A stretch of DNA of 26,533 bases, from IMG/VR virus record IMGVR_UViG_3300035698_022773, positions 1 to 26,533 of that record; one strand, given 5' to 3'. The notes under the pieces were generated by a model. The model was not told where the DNA came from. It made no database searches and worked only from the letters and a program-made list of their open reading frames with translations. The number at the start of each line of letters is the position of its first letter. The stretch's first letter is position 1. This document shows positions 3,083 through 25,775 of this stretch, in pieces. A program made the translations under genes and the position numbers. The stretch is from a virus.

Positions 3083-3727
3083 TTATATATCATATTCACT
3101 TAAGCCATCCCTGTCAATTTTTTGAAGGGTTTTATTTACTTTCTTTCTAATAATACTTCTACCTTTTCTAATTTGTGATTTTATAGTTGATAAATTTATA
3201 TCAAGACATTCTGAAATCTCCTTATATGCCATACCTTCTAATTCCCTCATAATTAATACTTGCTTATATTTTTCGTCTTTTTGAGGTAAATTGTAGATTG
3301 CATCTTTTATAATTTCAGCTTTACGAACAAAAACATGATATTCATGTTCTGTATGTTTACCATCATCATAAGGTATGAGATTTGTCAAATTTACATTTTC
3401 TTCAAATTCTTTATCTAAAGATGTTGAAGGTAATCTTGCCTTATCTTTATAACCTTTCTTCACTATATTCTCAGCAATTTTATAAACCCAAGTATTTGCT
3501 TGTGCTCCACCTTCATTTGGTCTTTTATATGTTTTGATGTTTAATAATGCTTGAATAAATGCTTCCTCTGCATAGTCCTCTGCAAGTTCTAAATCTCTAG
3601 TATAACGATTTAAGTAATATATTAATTTTGGTTTGTAATCCTTATAGAATTTCATAAAATTTAAAGTTGTACGTTCTTCAAATTCTACTGCTAAGTTGCT
3701 AATTTTGTCAATAGATTTATCTATCAT
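3083..3727 (-). CDS. Phage ECF-type RNA polymerase sigma factor
   Basis: A 214-residue sigma-70 family protein of ECF size. Region 2 covers about residues 25-85 (core-binding helix with YYLNRYTRDLELAEDYAEEA, then a promoter-melting part with NTWVYKIAENIV). Region 4 covers about 140-195, with a helix-turn-helix in AYKEISECLDINLSTIKSQI. There is no region 1 or 3. It would direct host core RNA polymerase to a specific promoter class. An obvious candidate target is the TAATATATA motif before structural and tagged genes in this window, but that link is an inference. It lies upstream of the Trp-rich gene and the rhomboid on the same strand. No anti-sigma gene is visible nearby. Confidence 0.9.
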   Translation of the reverse strand: MIDKSIDKISNLAVEFEERTTLNFMKFYKDYKPKLIYYLNRYTRDLELAEDYAEEAFIQALLNIKTYKRPNEGGAQANTWVYKIAENIVKKGYKDKARLPSTSLDKEFEENVNLTNLIPYDDGKHTEHEYHVFVRKAEIIKDAIYNLPQKDEKYKQVLIMRELEGMAYKEISECLDINLSTIKSQIRKGRSIIRKKVNKTLQKIDRDGLSEYDI

Positions 3728-20178: not shown

Positions 20179-20613
20179 TTAAATATCTTTCACACTAACA
20201 ACTAATTTTGTATCCCAAATTATATAATTAATATTTGAGCCACCTTCGGTGATAATAATACAATCATAATTACCAAAAGATTCAACTCCCAGATATTCTA
20301 TCATTTCCCATGTATCTGACATATAACTACCATTTTTATATTCATCAAAAGTAATATATTCTTCATTATATGGATCATAAAGTTCACCATCATTATCTTC
20401 AAATAACTCTTCCATTTGTTTATAATCAGTGGAATCGAAAATATTTGTTGGATTAATTGTAACTTCATAAAGAAATTTGCCATATTCTTCTGAAAAAACT
20501 ATATTTTCTGACAAAAAAAGAATATTAAAATCATCAAAATCTTGAGGTTCAGTTGAGCCGTGATATAATGTTAACTTATTATTACTTTCGAACATTTTAA
20601 ATTTAGTTTTCAT
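20179..20613 (-). CDS. Tagged ADP-ribosyltransferase-like protein
   Basis: A 144-residue protein that starts MKTKFKMFESNNK, a tag variant with M-F-E. The sequence then follows an ADP-ribosyltransferase pattern: LTLYHGS at 14-20 (NAD-binding His/Tyr region), ILFLSENIVFSEEYGKFLYEVTI at about 31-53 split by the usual Ser/Tyr positions, and a last motif YDCIIITEGGSNINYIIW near the C-terminus where the catalytic Glu would be expected. That Glu is not in its usual position, so activity is uncertain. T4 Alt, a head-packaged and injected ADP-ribosyltransferase, is the clear functional precedent. This is the last gene of the operon and overlaps its upstream neighbour by 11 bp. Confidence 0.7.
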   Translation of the reverse strand: MKTKFKMFESNNKLTLYHGSTEPQDFDDFNILFLSENIVFSEEYGKFLYEVTINPTNIFDSTDYKQMEELFEDNDGELYDPYNEEYITFDEYKNGSYMSDTWEMIEYLGVESFGNYDCIIITEGGSNINYIIWDTKLVVSVKDI

Positions 20614-21610
20614 ACATCACTTTAATTCTTTTTGAGCCATTTTGTACAGCTTTCTCAGGTATTCTCTTAGTTTCACCAGATTTAAAATCATCATAAGGAA
20701 TCCAGCCCTTTTTACTTTTATCTTTATATTCATCAGATACTCCATAATCTACTAAATTGACATATTCATAACCTTTTGATATGATTTCCAAATAGTTATC
20801 TTCCATATTACGTATTTTAAAATCTGTCACAAGTAATAGTGGTTTCTCCTGCCAAGTTTGTTGAAATATTTTATAATCAACATTAACAAATTTACCTTTA
20901 ATGCCATTAGATTCTTGGTATACATATTTACTTGCTCTTGCTCTTGCTTCAACTTCTGATTCTCCAGGTAATTGATATTTGAATTTTTTGGGTGACCAAC
21001 CTTCTGGTTTTTTTGATTTTTTTAACATAGGCGGGATTTCATGTTCTTGGTTAAATTCTTCTTTGCTTCTTTTACCACTTGATTTATAATCTTCTATAGG
21101 CAATAAATAATCTTCTCTATCATCATTGACCCATTTACCTTCTATTTTTGCAAAATATTCTTTATCTTCTTCAATAACTTCAATTCTCCAACCATCAGGC
21201 TTAAACTTTTTTCTAAGAGCACTTGATATATCTTTAAGTATTTGTAATAAAATTTCATTATTTTCTGGATAACTCCAAAAAGTGATAATTTTTCTCTTAG
21301 TCCATAATCTACCAGCATAATCTAAAATTTGTCTACCGTTTGGTTCGTTTTCACCTTCGTACTCAGGGTGCACATTTATCCATTCCTCGACAATTTCATC
21401 TTTATTTAATTTTTTATCTTTAATGTATTTATCAAGCATTAAATGATGTTTAGCATTAGGATCGCCATATTTCTTTATAATTAAATCATTTTTGTAATAT
21501 CCAAAAGAAATTGCATCCTTATTATTCCAATAGACTTCACCATCCAAATCTACATGTTCTATGATGTCAGGATTCTCAAATAATTTATATTTATTAAAAT
21601 TAGTTATCAT
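20603..21610 (-). CDS. Tagged four-copy-domain protein, copy 4, with C-terminal extension
   Basis: A 335-residue protein starting MITNFNKYKLFENPD (tag, L-F-E). Residues about 15-232 are one copy of a domain repeated in the two upstream genes: DAISFGYYKNDLIIKK, then GRLWTKRKIITFWSYPEN, GWRIEVIEEDKE and the closing GWSPKKFKYQLPGESEVEAR segment and KYVYQE. A unique 100-residue C-terminal part follows (FVNVDYKIFQQTWQEKPLLL, SKKGWIPYDDFKSGETKR). The domain is not one I can name. The gene starts at ATGA overlapping the previous stop, so translation is coupled. Confidence 0.8.
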   Translation of the reverse strand: MITNFNKYKLFENPDIIEHVDLDGEVYWNNKDAISFGYYKNDLIIKKYGDPNAKHHLMLDKYIKDKKLNKDEIVEEWINVHPEYEGENEPNGRQILDYAGRLWTKRKIITFWSYPENNEILLQILKDISSALRKKFKPDGWRIEVIEEDKEYFAKIEGKWVNDDREDYLLPIEDYKSSGKRSKEEFNQEHEIPPMLKKSKKPEGWSPKKFKYQLPGESEVEARARASKYVYQESNGIKGKFVNVDYKIFQQTWQEKPLLLVTDFKIRNMEDNYLEIISKGYEYVNLVDYGVSDEYKDKSKKGWIPYDDFKSGETKRIPEKAVQNGSKRIKVMYEN

Positions 21611-23760
21611 AATTTGTATATATTTTCTTGGTACACATATTTACTTACTCTTGCTCTCGCTTCAACTTCTGATTCTCCAGGTAATTGATATTTGAATTTT
21701 TTGGGTGACCAACCTTCTGGTTTTTTGGTATTTTTTAATATAGGCGACAATTCATGTTCTTGGTTAAATTCGTCTTTATCTCTTTTGCCACTAGATTTAT
21801 AATCTAACACAGATATCAAGTAATCTTCACGCTTATCATTTGACCATTTACCAACTTTTTTTGCTAATTCTTCCTTTTCTTCACTTATAACTTCGATAAT
21901 CCAATCTTCAGGATAAAATCCTACACCAATTACATTTAAAACTTCTTTAAGGACTTTTAATAAAGTTTCTATATTTTCTGGGTAATTCCAGAAAGTAATA
22001 AGTTTTTGCTGAAACCATAATCTACCACAATAATCTAACAGTTGTCTACTATTTGATGAGTACGCTTTACTTTCAGGATGTTTTTCTAACCATTCATTAA
22101 AAGCATCATCTTCGTCTATGTTGTTATTTTTAAAATATTCTTCAAGCATTTCATAATGCATATAATTATCATCATTTAACCTCTTTACAATTAAATCAGT
22201 CTTGTAATATCCAAAAGAAATTGCGTCACTATCACTCCATCTAGCATACCTATCTGAAATTTCATCCTTTAAAGTGTCAGGATTTTCAAATAACTTGAAT
22301 TTAATTATCATAATTTATAAGCTATTACTTTTTTATCACCTGCAATTGATTCTTTATTAATCTTTTGTATGAAATTTTGATTTTCTAATTCATCCACAAT
22401 TTCACGTCTTACATCAGGAGCCATAAAAAATTCATCATCTTGTAATTCCTTACTATCTGGAATTTTGATATCTAATCTTTGATAAATTTCATCTTGCATC
22501 ATTAAATATACTTTATTATTTTTAGATAATACATTAAAAGTATTTTCATCACCATCAATAACAATAGTTATTACACTACTTTCAAAATTCTCAAAAAGTG
22601 TTATCATATTCTCTTGATATTTATATTTAGTTACTCTATTTCTAGCTTCAACTTCCGTTTCGTCAGGTAGTTGATAGTTGAATTTCTTTGGAGTCCATCC
22701 TGGAATTCTATCCTTAATTTTTCCTTTTTTATCTATTGGTTTTTGTAGGTGCATTAAGTATTTTTCTTCTGGAACATCTTCACTACCAGCATATTCATCA
22801 GCAGATATAATTTCATCTGTTTCACTTACTGTTTCACCGTCACCATCTTCAGAGTTTATTACTACACGCCAACCATTATTTAATATTATTAAACCTTCTT
22901 GTTTTTCTAAAGCATTACACATTATTCTAAACATTTTTTCATCTGGATATAACCAAAATGCCATAATTTTTGATTCTTCCCAAAGTCTACCAGGATATTC
23001 CCTATTTTTACACCTATTATATAATTGATAATGATTACTACCATAGTCACCTATGGCTAATTGTCCTTCTATTGGACACCATTCAAATGGTATTGCATCA
23101 TCATCTGAATCATATAATTCATCACCATTTGGCAAATCAAGTGCATCTGGTGTGCCAATATTGGAAAAAAATACATTTTCTTGATATTTATATTTAGTTA
23201 CTCTATTTCTTGCTTCAACTTCTGTTTCATCAGGTAATTGATATTTGAACTTTTTAGGTTCCCATCCTGATAATCTATCTTTTGCTTTTCCTTTTTTGTC
23301 TATCGGTTTTTGTAGGTGCATCAAATAATCTTCTTCTGGTGCATCTTCACTACCAACATAATCTTCAACAGGAATAATTTCATTATCAAGTTCATCTTCC
23401 CAATCCACTTCATAATACTTGTCGTCGTCACTATTTTTAATTTTAATTTCACCGTCGATAGTATTTATCACGATGAGCCATCCATTATTTAGTATTTTTA
23501 TGTGTTCTTTTTCAAAAGATGAGCACATCTTTTGAAATATATTTTTATCTGGAAACACCCAAAATGTAATAATTTTAGAATCTTTCCAAAGTCTACCAGG
23601 ATATTGCATATTATCACACCTATCTATTATATCACAATGATTAGAACTATTTGCACCAAGTTTCAATTTTTCTTCATCTGGACACCATTCAAATGGTATT
23701 GCATCATTATCATAATATGATAACTCACCATTTGGTAAATCAAGTGCATCTGGTGTACCA
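20905..23760 (-). repeat. Four tandem copies of one protein-coding domain
   Basis: Two copies in the gene at 22308-23804 and one each in those at 21607 and 20603, each about 185-220 codons long. Copies 1 and 2 are most alike, as are 3 and 4. Confidence 0.85.
21607..22311 (-). CDS. Tagged four-copy-domain protein, copy 3
   Basis: A 234-residue protein starting MIIKFKLFENPDTLKD (L-F-E), then a single copy of the repeated domain ending GWSPKKFKYQLPGESEVEAR and KYVYQENIYKL. It is most similar to the 20603 protein, for example DAISFGYYKTDLIVKRL and GRLWFQQKLITFWNYPEN, so these two are the more recent pair. Both ends overlap neighbours by 4 bp (ATGA type). Confidence 0.8.
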   Translation of the reverse strand: MIIKFKLFENPDTLKDEISDRYARWSDSDAISFGYYKTDLIVKRLNDDNYMHYEMLEEYFKNNNIDEDDAFNEWLEKHPESKAYSSNSRQLLDYCGRLWFQQKLITFWNYPENIETLLKVLKEVLNVIGVGFYPEDWIIEVISEEKEELAKKVGKWSNDKREDYLISVLDYKSSGKRDKDEFNQEHELSPILKNTKKPEGWSPKKFKYQLPGESEVEARARVSKYVYQENIYKL

Positions 23761-23804
23761 TAATTATTTCCACCATTTTCAAATATTTTAAAATTTATTA
23801 TCAT
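22308..23804 (-). CDS. Tagged fusion protein with two copies of the repeated domain
   Basis: A 498-residue protein starting MIINFKIFENGGNN (I-F-E). Residues about 16-209 and 217-399 are two copies of the domain (GTPDALDLPNG, DAIPFEWCP, YPGRLW, LNNGW, then KKFKYQLPDETEVEARNRVT or KKFNYQLPDETEVEARNRVT and KYQEN). After copy 2 the sequence reads MITLFENFESS at residue 400, itself like an N-terminal tag with L-F-E, followed by a 90-residue separate domain (DDEFFMAPDVRREIVDELEN). The protein looks like three formerly separate tagged genes joined by loss of stop codons. Residue 400 (22607) could also be an internal start. The first gene of the operon, it has a promoter motif 24 bp upstream. Confidence 0.8.
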   Translation of the reverse strand: MIINFKIFENGGNNYGTPDALDLPNGELSYYDNDAIPFEWCPDEEKLKLGANSSNHCDIIDRCDNMQYPGRLWKDSKIITFWVFPDKNIFQKMCSSFEKEHIKILNNGWLIVINTIDGEIKIKNSDDDKYYEVDWEDELDNEIIPVEDYVGSEDAPEEDYLMHLQKPIDKKGKAKDRLSGWEPKKFKYQLPDETEVEARNRVTKYKYQENVFFSNIGTPDALDLPNGDELYDSDDDAIPFEWCPIEGQLAIGDYGSNHYQLYNRCKNREYPGRLWEESKIMAFWLYPDEKMFRIMCNALEKQEGLIILNNGWRVVINSEDGDGETVSETDEIISADEYAGSEDVPEEKYLMHLQKPIDKKGKIKDRIPGWTPKKFNYQLPDETEVEARNRVTKYKYQENMITLFENFESSVITIVIDGDENTFNVLSKNNKVYLMMQDEIYQRLDIKIPDSKELQDDEFFMAPDVRREIVDELENQNFIQKINKESIAGDKKVIAYKL

Positions 23805-24890: not shown

Positions 24891-24922
24891 AACAAAAAAC
24901 CATCTAAAAAATAGATGGTTTG
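24891..24922 (-). terminator. Intrinsic terminator of the RNA locus
   Basis: On the minus strand AACCATCTA and TAGATGGTT pair, followed by TTTTGTTTT. It ends transcription of the structured RNA just upstream. Confidence 0.8.
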
Positions 24923-25105: not shown

Positions 25106-25150
25106 AAATTAAAAAAGGTTACAACTAAATGAAAATAGTTGTAACCTTAT
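25106..25150 (-). terminator. Intrinsic terminator of the tmRNA gene
   Basis: AAGGTTACAACTA and TAGTTGTAACCTT form a 13-bp stem, followed on the minus strand by a T run. It begins 14 bp past the tmRNA 3' end. Confidence 0.9.
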
Positions 25151-25161
25151 GATAATCAGAG

Positions 25162-25531
25162 TGGAGATGGAGGGTACCGATTCCCTCGTCCATATAAGCC
25201 TTTCAATAGCCTTCTACAAGTTTAGTTTATTTTTTCTGAACAAACAAACATATTCAATTTTTAATTAGTAATTGATAAATCTAATAACTCATCTTTTCTT
25301 TTAAGTCTTAAAGATATATTAGTGTCAAGACATTCTGGTTTTGCTTAGGCTGCAAGAGCAACACCTGAATCAACAACAGTTCCAGTAACTGCGAAGATCG
25401 AGTTTGTGTTGGCTATATGCGTGTGTGTTTTGCCATTTCAAAATTACCTTCTAATTTATTAATCGCATATTAGATAAAGCGATACTTGCCAGTTTTCTTA
25501 TTATACTTACTGTCTATTCCATTTCATCCCC
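25162..25531 (-). ncRNA. ssrA: Transfer-messenger RNA (tmRNA)
   Basis: A 370-nt RNA. The 5' end GGGGATG pairs with CATCTCC near the 3' end as a 7-bp acceptor stem with one G-T pair, followed by discriminator A; CCA is not encoded. GGGGATGAAATGGAATAGAC matches the tmRNA 5' consensus. An H-type pseudoknot is visible before the tag (ATCGC/GCGAT with TCTAAT/ATTAGA). The tag reading frame ends in VALAA and TAA. GGACGAGGG and CCCTCCATCTCCA match the tmRNA 3' end. tmRNA rescues stalled ribosomes and marks the unfinished protein for proteolysis. The T-loop (AATCGGTA) is not of the usual TTCRANY form. It is followed by its own terminator. Confidence 0.92.
25345..25413 (-). other. tmRNA proteolysis-tag reading frame
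   Basis: Starting at a probable GCC resume codon at 25411-25413, the tag reads ANTNSIFAVT, then GTVVDSG and VALAA, and ends with TAA at 25345-25347. At 22 residues it is longer than most known tags but keeps the protease-recognised ALAA end. The exact resume codon is an inference. Confidence 0.8.
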
Positions 25532-25599
25532 ATAAATCAAAGAACTAAATAATAGTTAAATAAAATGATGAAATCTAATGAATTCAAGCATTTTACCGT

Positions 25600-25668
25600 G
25601 ATTTCCTAATTCAACGAGGGTCTAATGACTTCCTCTCCAAAGGCGTTAATTCGGGCAAACTCATCCCT
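25600..25668 (-). ncRNA. Possible second structured RNA upstream of tmRNA
   Basis: Locally GC-richer than its surroundings. GAATTAACG pairs with CGTTGAATT (one bulge), extended by CC/GG pairs, enclosing CCTTTGGAGAGGAAG. No gene is evident: only a 17-codon ATG frame without a leader, so an RNA leader or separate small RNA is likelier. The remaining DNA (25532-25599 and 25669-25775) is very AT-rich and shows only a GTATATATAGAGTATATAA stretch that may be a promoter. Confidence 0.3.
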
Positions 25669-25775
25669 ATATTTTTTAATTATATACTCTATATATACCA
25701 CAAAAATATTAAAGTTTTTCTATTTTTCAATATTAGGTTTAATATTTCTTCGCATATTACATTTTAGTTTATTTT

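Follow-up and report, generated by a model that had tools for sequence, protein, structure and literature searches.

A one-piece tmRNA gene in a huge-phage fragment

The window (the whole stretch analysed, 26,533 nucleotides of IMG/VR record IMGVR_UViG_3300035698_022773) contains a one-piece tmRNA gene, ssrA, with a structured element in its leader and an intrinsic terminator about a dozen bases 3′ of it (Table 1). When Rfam is searched with E-value reporting, RF00023 matches the minus strand at 25531-25159 over its full length (model positions 1-374) with 46.4 bits and an E-value of 4.6e-17, and the family ranking second in the searched stretch has an E-value of 2. This confirms the tmRNA of the initial annotation, which gave no strand. 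The covariance model supports the gene by the full-length match and its E-value, but the score is 0.6 bits below the curated cut-off of 47. At the gathering threshold, zero Rfam families are matched in the window, and ARAGORN calls no tmRNA in it. A permuted or two-piece tmRNA was rejected, as RF04321 scores only 12.3 bits.

Six viral relatives align with the window tmRNA at ~70% identity. One of them (G036, 69.7% over 347 nt) is ARAGORN-positive and scores 59.2 bits with RF00023; because it passes both tests, the sub-threshold score and the ARAGORN miss in the window reflect divergence. ARAGORN also misses the tmRNA of a 735-kb relative, and phage tmRNAs are undercounted by surveys based on it.

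Table 1 Features of the tmRNA locus, in window coordinates
Feature	Position	Strand	Details
TnpB omega-RNA-like structured element, orphan	25595..25669	−	~75 nt in the tmRNA leader; model R1, 89.8 bits
GTTCTTTGA	25537..25545	−	just upstream of the tmRNA 5′ end; sequence comparison
One-piece tmRNA (ssrA)	25162..25531	−	mature 5′ end 25531, discriminator A73 at 25162; RF00023 and relatives
Pseudoknot PK1	25451..25483	−	stem 1 AUCGC/GCGAU, stem 2 CUAAU/AUUAG; from sequence
Tag frame	25345..25434	−	resume codon GGC 25434-25432, 29 codons GKTHTHIANTNSIFAVTGTVVDSGVALAA, stop TAA 25347-25345
Hairpin in tag frame with downstream pairing	25335..25391	−	CAGUU 25391-25387 / AACUG 25381-25377
Intrinsic terminator	25110..25149	−	hairpin and T-run, fold z-score −6.9

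Comparison of the tail sheath identifies the window as a 26.5-kb fragment of a Mahaphage-type huge phage. The 1226-aa sheath is closest to that of the 735-kb phage LR756501 (47% identity over its length), then to those of 634-642-kb phages, with Lak phages further away. All these phages are members of the Mahaphage clade, whose predicted hosts are Bacteroidota (PMC7162821). The window tmRNA DNA matches LR756501 at 718414-718763, and homologues of the flanking orf25776, orf26154 and orf23924 lie near the tmRNA in several relatives; the neighbouring 77-aa protein used as a query has no close relatives. The 735-, 636- and 462-kb phages yielded tmRNAs, as did two Lak phages and several contigs.

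The T-loop of the 735-kb phage tmRNA is interrupted by a group I intron (RF00028, 96.1 bits; L074 1272-1503, minus strand, near 718388 in LR756501), like tmRNA genes with such an intron described elsewhere (PMC11915505), whereas the window copy is without intron. Elsewhere on the minus strand, the window encodes a sigma-70 family factor (3083-3727; PF04542, PF08281) and three adjacent ORFs (20603-23804) that share repeated related segments (PGRLW, KPEGWSPKKFKYQLPGESEVEARAR) and are apparently tandem paralogues.

Anatomy of the tmRNA and its flanks

As read from the sequence, the acceptor stem pairs GGGGAUG with CAUCUCC and is followed by A73. It includes G3-U70, the wobble that serves as the identity pair of alanine tRNAs. 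The 3′ CCA is not encoded in the window gene. The T-loop AAUCGGUA keeps UCG and is atypical in having 8 nt instead of the canonical 7; several relatives have a canonical loop. The 8-nt loop lowers confidence in function, not in homology. PK1 stem 1 covaries, being AACGC/GCGUU in L233 and AUCGU/ACGAU in the 735-kb phage, and PK1 is followed, as in tmRNAs, by a resume codon and a tag frame with a hydrophobic end and stop. Of the parts listed in the initial annotation, acceptor pairing, a pseudoknot before the tag, a VALAA-ending frame with its stop and a terminator were found.

The GTTCTTTGA site, which we take to be boxA-like, is kept as GTTCTTTRA or GTTCTTTTA in most relatives; by itself it is not rare enough within the window to stand out. 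On the other side of the gene, the segment 24918-25062 (minus strand), flanked by the tmRNA terminator and by another one at 24896-24921, likely encodes a non-coding RNA. It folds better than shuffles (z −2.4) and has no convincing relative among the loci searched.

The leader element recurs in ~18 viral contigs, and a model trained on 14 copies picks up weaker ones in Lak phages as well. Two of its hairpins covary, with 21 double-change cells versus 5.6 in shuffles. In other huge phages, which hold several copies per genome, some of these lie directly after TnpB genes (PF07282, PF01385) or overlap them, which makes a TnpB omega-RNA scaffold the most likely identity of the element. No TnpB is detectable in the window. 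From comparison of 3′ ends, the predicted guide starts after AACTAT and spans ~20 nt up to the mature tmRNA 5′ end. We speculate that RNase P, in trimming the tmRNA precursor, would also set the end of the guide.

A mobile element inserted directly upstream of the tmRNA, together with the 8-nt T-loop and the sub-threshold RF00023 score, might be expected of a tmRNA that is decaying or inactive, or that acts as a decoy titrating SmpB, a role that has reportedly been proposed for the tmRNA of phage DS6A, which is truncated. We regard this as very improbable, as no damage is seen in acceptor, PK1, resume codon, frame or terminator and the tag frame is kept in relatives.

A tag of 29 codons

In the six relatives (L198, L231, L204/G004, L233, L235 and L169/G036), UAAAU is followed by the resume codon GGC, and a frame of 28 open codons gives tags of the type GEAHTHIVTSKSTxSVAGTVVEREVSVA. 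In the window, GAAAU precedes GGC, and the tag that starts there has 29 codons. The frame of 28-29 codons is open in 7/7 sequences, while stops are present in the other two frames in most of the seven. A tag of 22 residues starting from GCC, as initially annotated, is therefore wrong, being an in-frame truncation: the conserved start is found in this frame seven codons further upstream. The window tag ends in VALAA, and the ends of the relatives vary (SVA, FVA, LVA, VLA). No homology to known proteins is found in Pfam, and PDB yields only matches with E ≥ 0.2, mostly designed propellers.

The tag was compared with those of 30 bacterial genomes picked from SmpB matches, all titled as Bacteroidota. 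A tmRNA was found in 29 of these, with a readable tag in 27 (25 by ARAGORN and two re-read by hand). The 27 tags are all of 9-10 residues, mostly GxNNYALAA or GxxxYAMAA. The window tag is long for a tmRNA, as initially claimed. Two host tags of 26 and 29 residues called by ARAGORN are artefacts, as re-reading gives GNNSDYALAA and GENTYAMAA. The window tmRNA resembles the Bacteroidota chromosomal ones in its GGC resume codon, Gly-first tag and one-piece form, but theirs is a GENNYALAA-type tag, and that of the phage crosses an RNA hairpin. In a tmRNA database of 97,179 sequences, the commonest tag length is 10 (PMC11915505).

ARAGORN called 29 distinct phage tags in a pattern-based sample, of which seven have 9-10 residues and twenty have 20-32; since the pattern biases this sample and tags can be misplaced by ARAGORN, only tag families present in several contigs are to be trusted.

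RNA structure and peptide constraint in the tag

The hairpin within the frame has a loop, CUGG (25385-25382), for which CCAG (25338-25335), downstream of the stop, is a potential pairing partner. The motif CAGUU-N-CUGG-AACUG in the frame and CCAG a few bases past the stop are present in 7/7 sequences. From these pairings, we infer an H-type pseudoknot across the tag, which would be opened by the ribosome in mid-tag. Covariation cannot prove it because its sequence does not vary, but third positions are frozen only in the hairpin codons, which is a supporting sign. That the tag frame crosses this structure suggests that the tag grew by extending into a downstream pseudoknot.

Substitutions were counted as uncorrected proportions over few codons. 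With this caution, the whole tag of the six relatives has pN 0.123 and pS 0.241 (pN/pS 0.51); pS falls to 0.056 in codons 15-20, the hairpin, and the remaining codons have pN 0.134 and pS 0.307 (pN/pS 0.44). A second long-tag family, (A)EDxMSIxTSLT (e.g., EDIMSIPTSLT), is present in the 735-kb phage (L074) and in L095, L122, L146, L172 and L192. Its peptide constraint is stronger than that of the window's family, with pN 0.04-0.23 versus pS 0.47-0.75, and Ser and Leu codons are exchanged for synonymous ones with the peptide unchanged. Because the tag also folds, constraint on the peptide is in part confounded with constraint on the RNA, and substitutions are few in so short a frame.

The long tag could lack a role of its own: the C-terminal degron would suffice, and the added length would have arisen by drift once an early stop had been lost, with RNA structure keeping the frame open. 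The conserved hairpin in codons 15-20 with its frozen third positions would fit, as would the differing C-terminal ends (VALAA, VSVA, VFVA, LVLA). However, outside the hairpin silent changes outnumber amino-acid changes, and the EDIMSIPTSLT family holds its peptide constant. We therefore consider drift possible but rather unlikely. Since in this phage lineage the additional ~20 residues are under constraint at the peptide level, they are probably functional, and a tag about three times the host length that is conserved across related phages is probably more than a simple destruction mark.

Further unrelated long-tag families were seen in L160, L170, L205, L098, L375 and others (GKNKNRVVAFSPKAEQLALAA, AKTAKYKGHISARVSLVEMTESVA, AREEYDNLVQFEQAEELEMVA, AKDYAVKFALAFADNISLGVASSIAA); a blastn search for isolate phages carrying other long-tag families gave no match. 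We tentatively propose, at somewhat less than even confidence, that phages repeatedly evolved extended tmRNA tags (~20-33 residues, in several unrelated families) with the N-terminal part selected as peptide.

SmpB and proteases

Among eight complete phage records, SmpB is encoded in six, namely the 735-, 634-, 642- and 636-kb phages and two Lak phages. None lies within the 26.5-kb window, and host SmpB could serve as the partner. The best 80 bacterial matches to the phage SmpBs are 46-59% identical and nearly all from Bacteroidota. ClpP is encoded in the SmpB-bearing phages except the 735-kb one, and also in the 462-kb phage. A ClpB/ClpX-type domain is present in all six SmpB-bearing phages, and a Lon_C domain in none of the complete relatives.

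The initial annotation had suggested that tagged proteins might be redirected to a phage-favoured protease. Extended tags of similar length (~27 residues) occur in Mycoplasma and Mesoplasma, without sequence likeness to those of the phages, and go with ClpXP loss and use of Lon. By analogy, the long tag might send phage-tagged proteins to another protease, such as a phage ClpP complex or host Lon or FtsH. A VALAA end, which the window tag carries, is however an ordinary ClpXP-type degron. The precedent of Lon recognising the Mycoplasma tag (as cited in PMC3985003), the ClpP and ClpB/ClpX-type ATPases of several Mahaphages and the SVA or FVA ends, not ALAA, of the relatives' tags speak for such redirection. 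Against it stand the ordinary end of the window tag and the 735-kb phage, the nearest complete relative, which lacks both ClpP and Lon_C. The case is weak for this phage, and we judge redirection improbable.

Discussion

Taken jointly, the locus is probably a working ssrA of a Mahaphage-type huge phage, a rescue RNA that would add a ClpXP-type degron plus an extra N-terminal segment. The anatomy gives good support to ribosome rescue with a degradation tag, the tRNA-like and mRNA-like halves of the RNA being complete in sequence (alanine identity pair, PK1, resume codon, tag frame and terminator). The tmRNA would be charged with alanine, bind SmpB, either phage-encoded as in complete relatives or the host's, and rescue ribosomes stalled on broken mRNAs during infection. 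Alanine and 29 residues ending in VALAA would be appended, and host ClpXP should recognise this end. The extra ~20 residues might provide, for example, a second contact with a protease or adaptor, or a stronger start of unfolding. Replacement of host ribosome rescue by the phage tmRNA, also proposed in the initial annotation, is plausible, given that SmpB is encoded as well in complete relatives.

Phage tmRNAs are already known, as initially stated, and so is the combination of tmRNA and SmpB in huge phages (PMC4131195, PMC9004378 and the tmRNA passages of PMC7162821). Those passages (Al-Shayeb et al. 2020) report phage tmRNA and SmpB in the same clade, but the tmRNAs there were found by ARAGORN, which misses that of the window and that of its 735-kb relative, and the passages do not discuss tag sequences or lengths. 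The new part is the long, constrained tag, as long peptide-constrained phage tags were not found described in the literature searched.

Phage tmRNAs are commonly regarded as a backup of the host's ribosome rescue. A tag that is conserved as a peptide and three times as long as the host's suggests a phage-specific use of tagging. If this is true, each protein rescued in infection would bear a phage-specific signal, unlike the host's 9-residue tag, which would alter its fate or partner.
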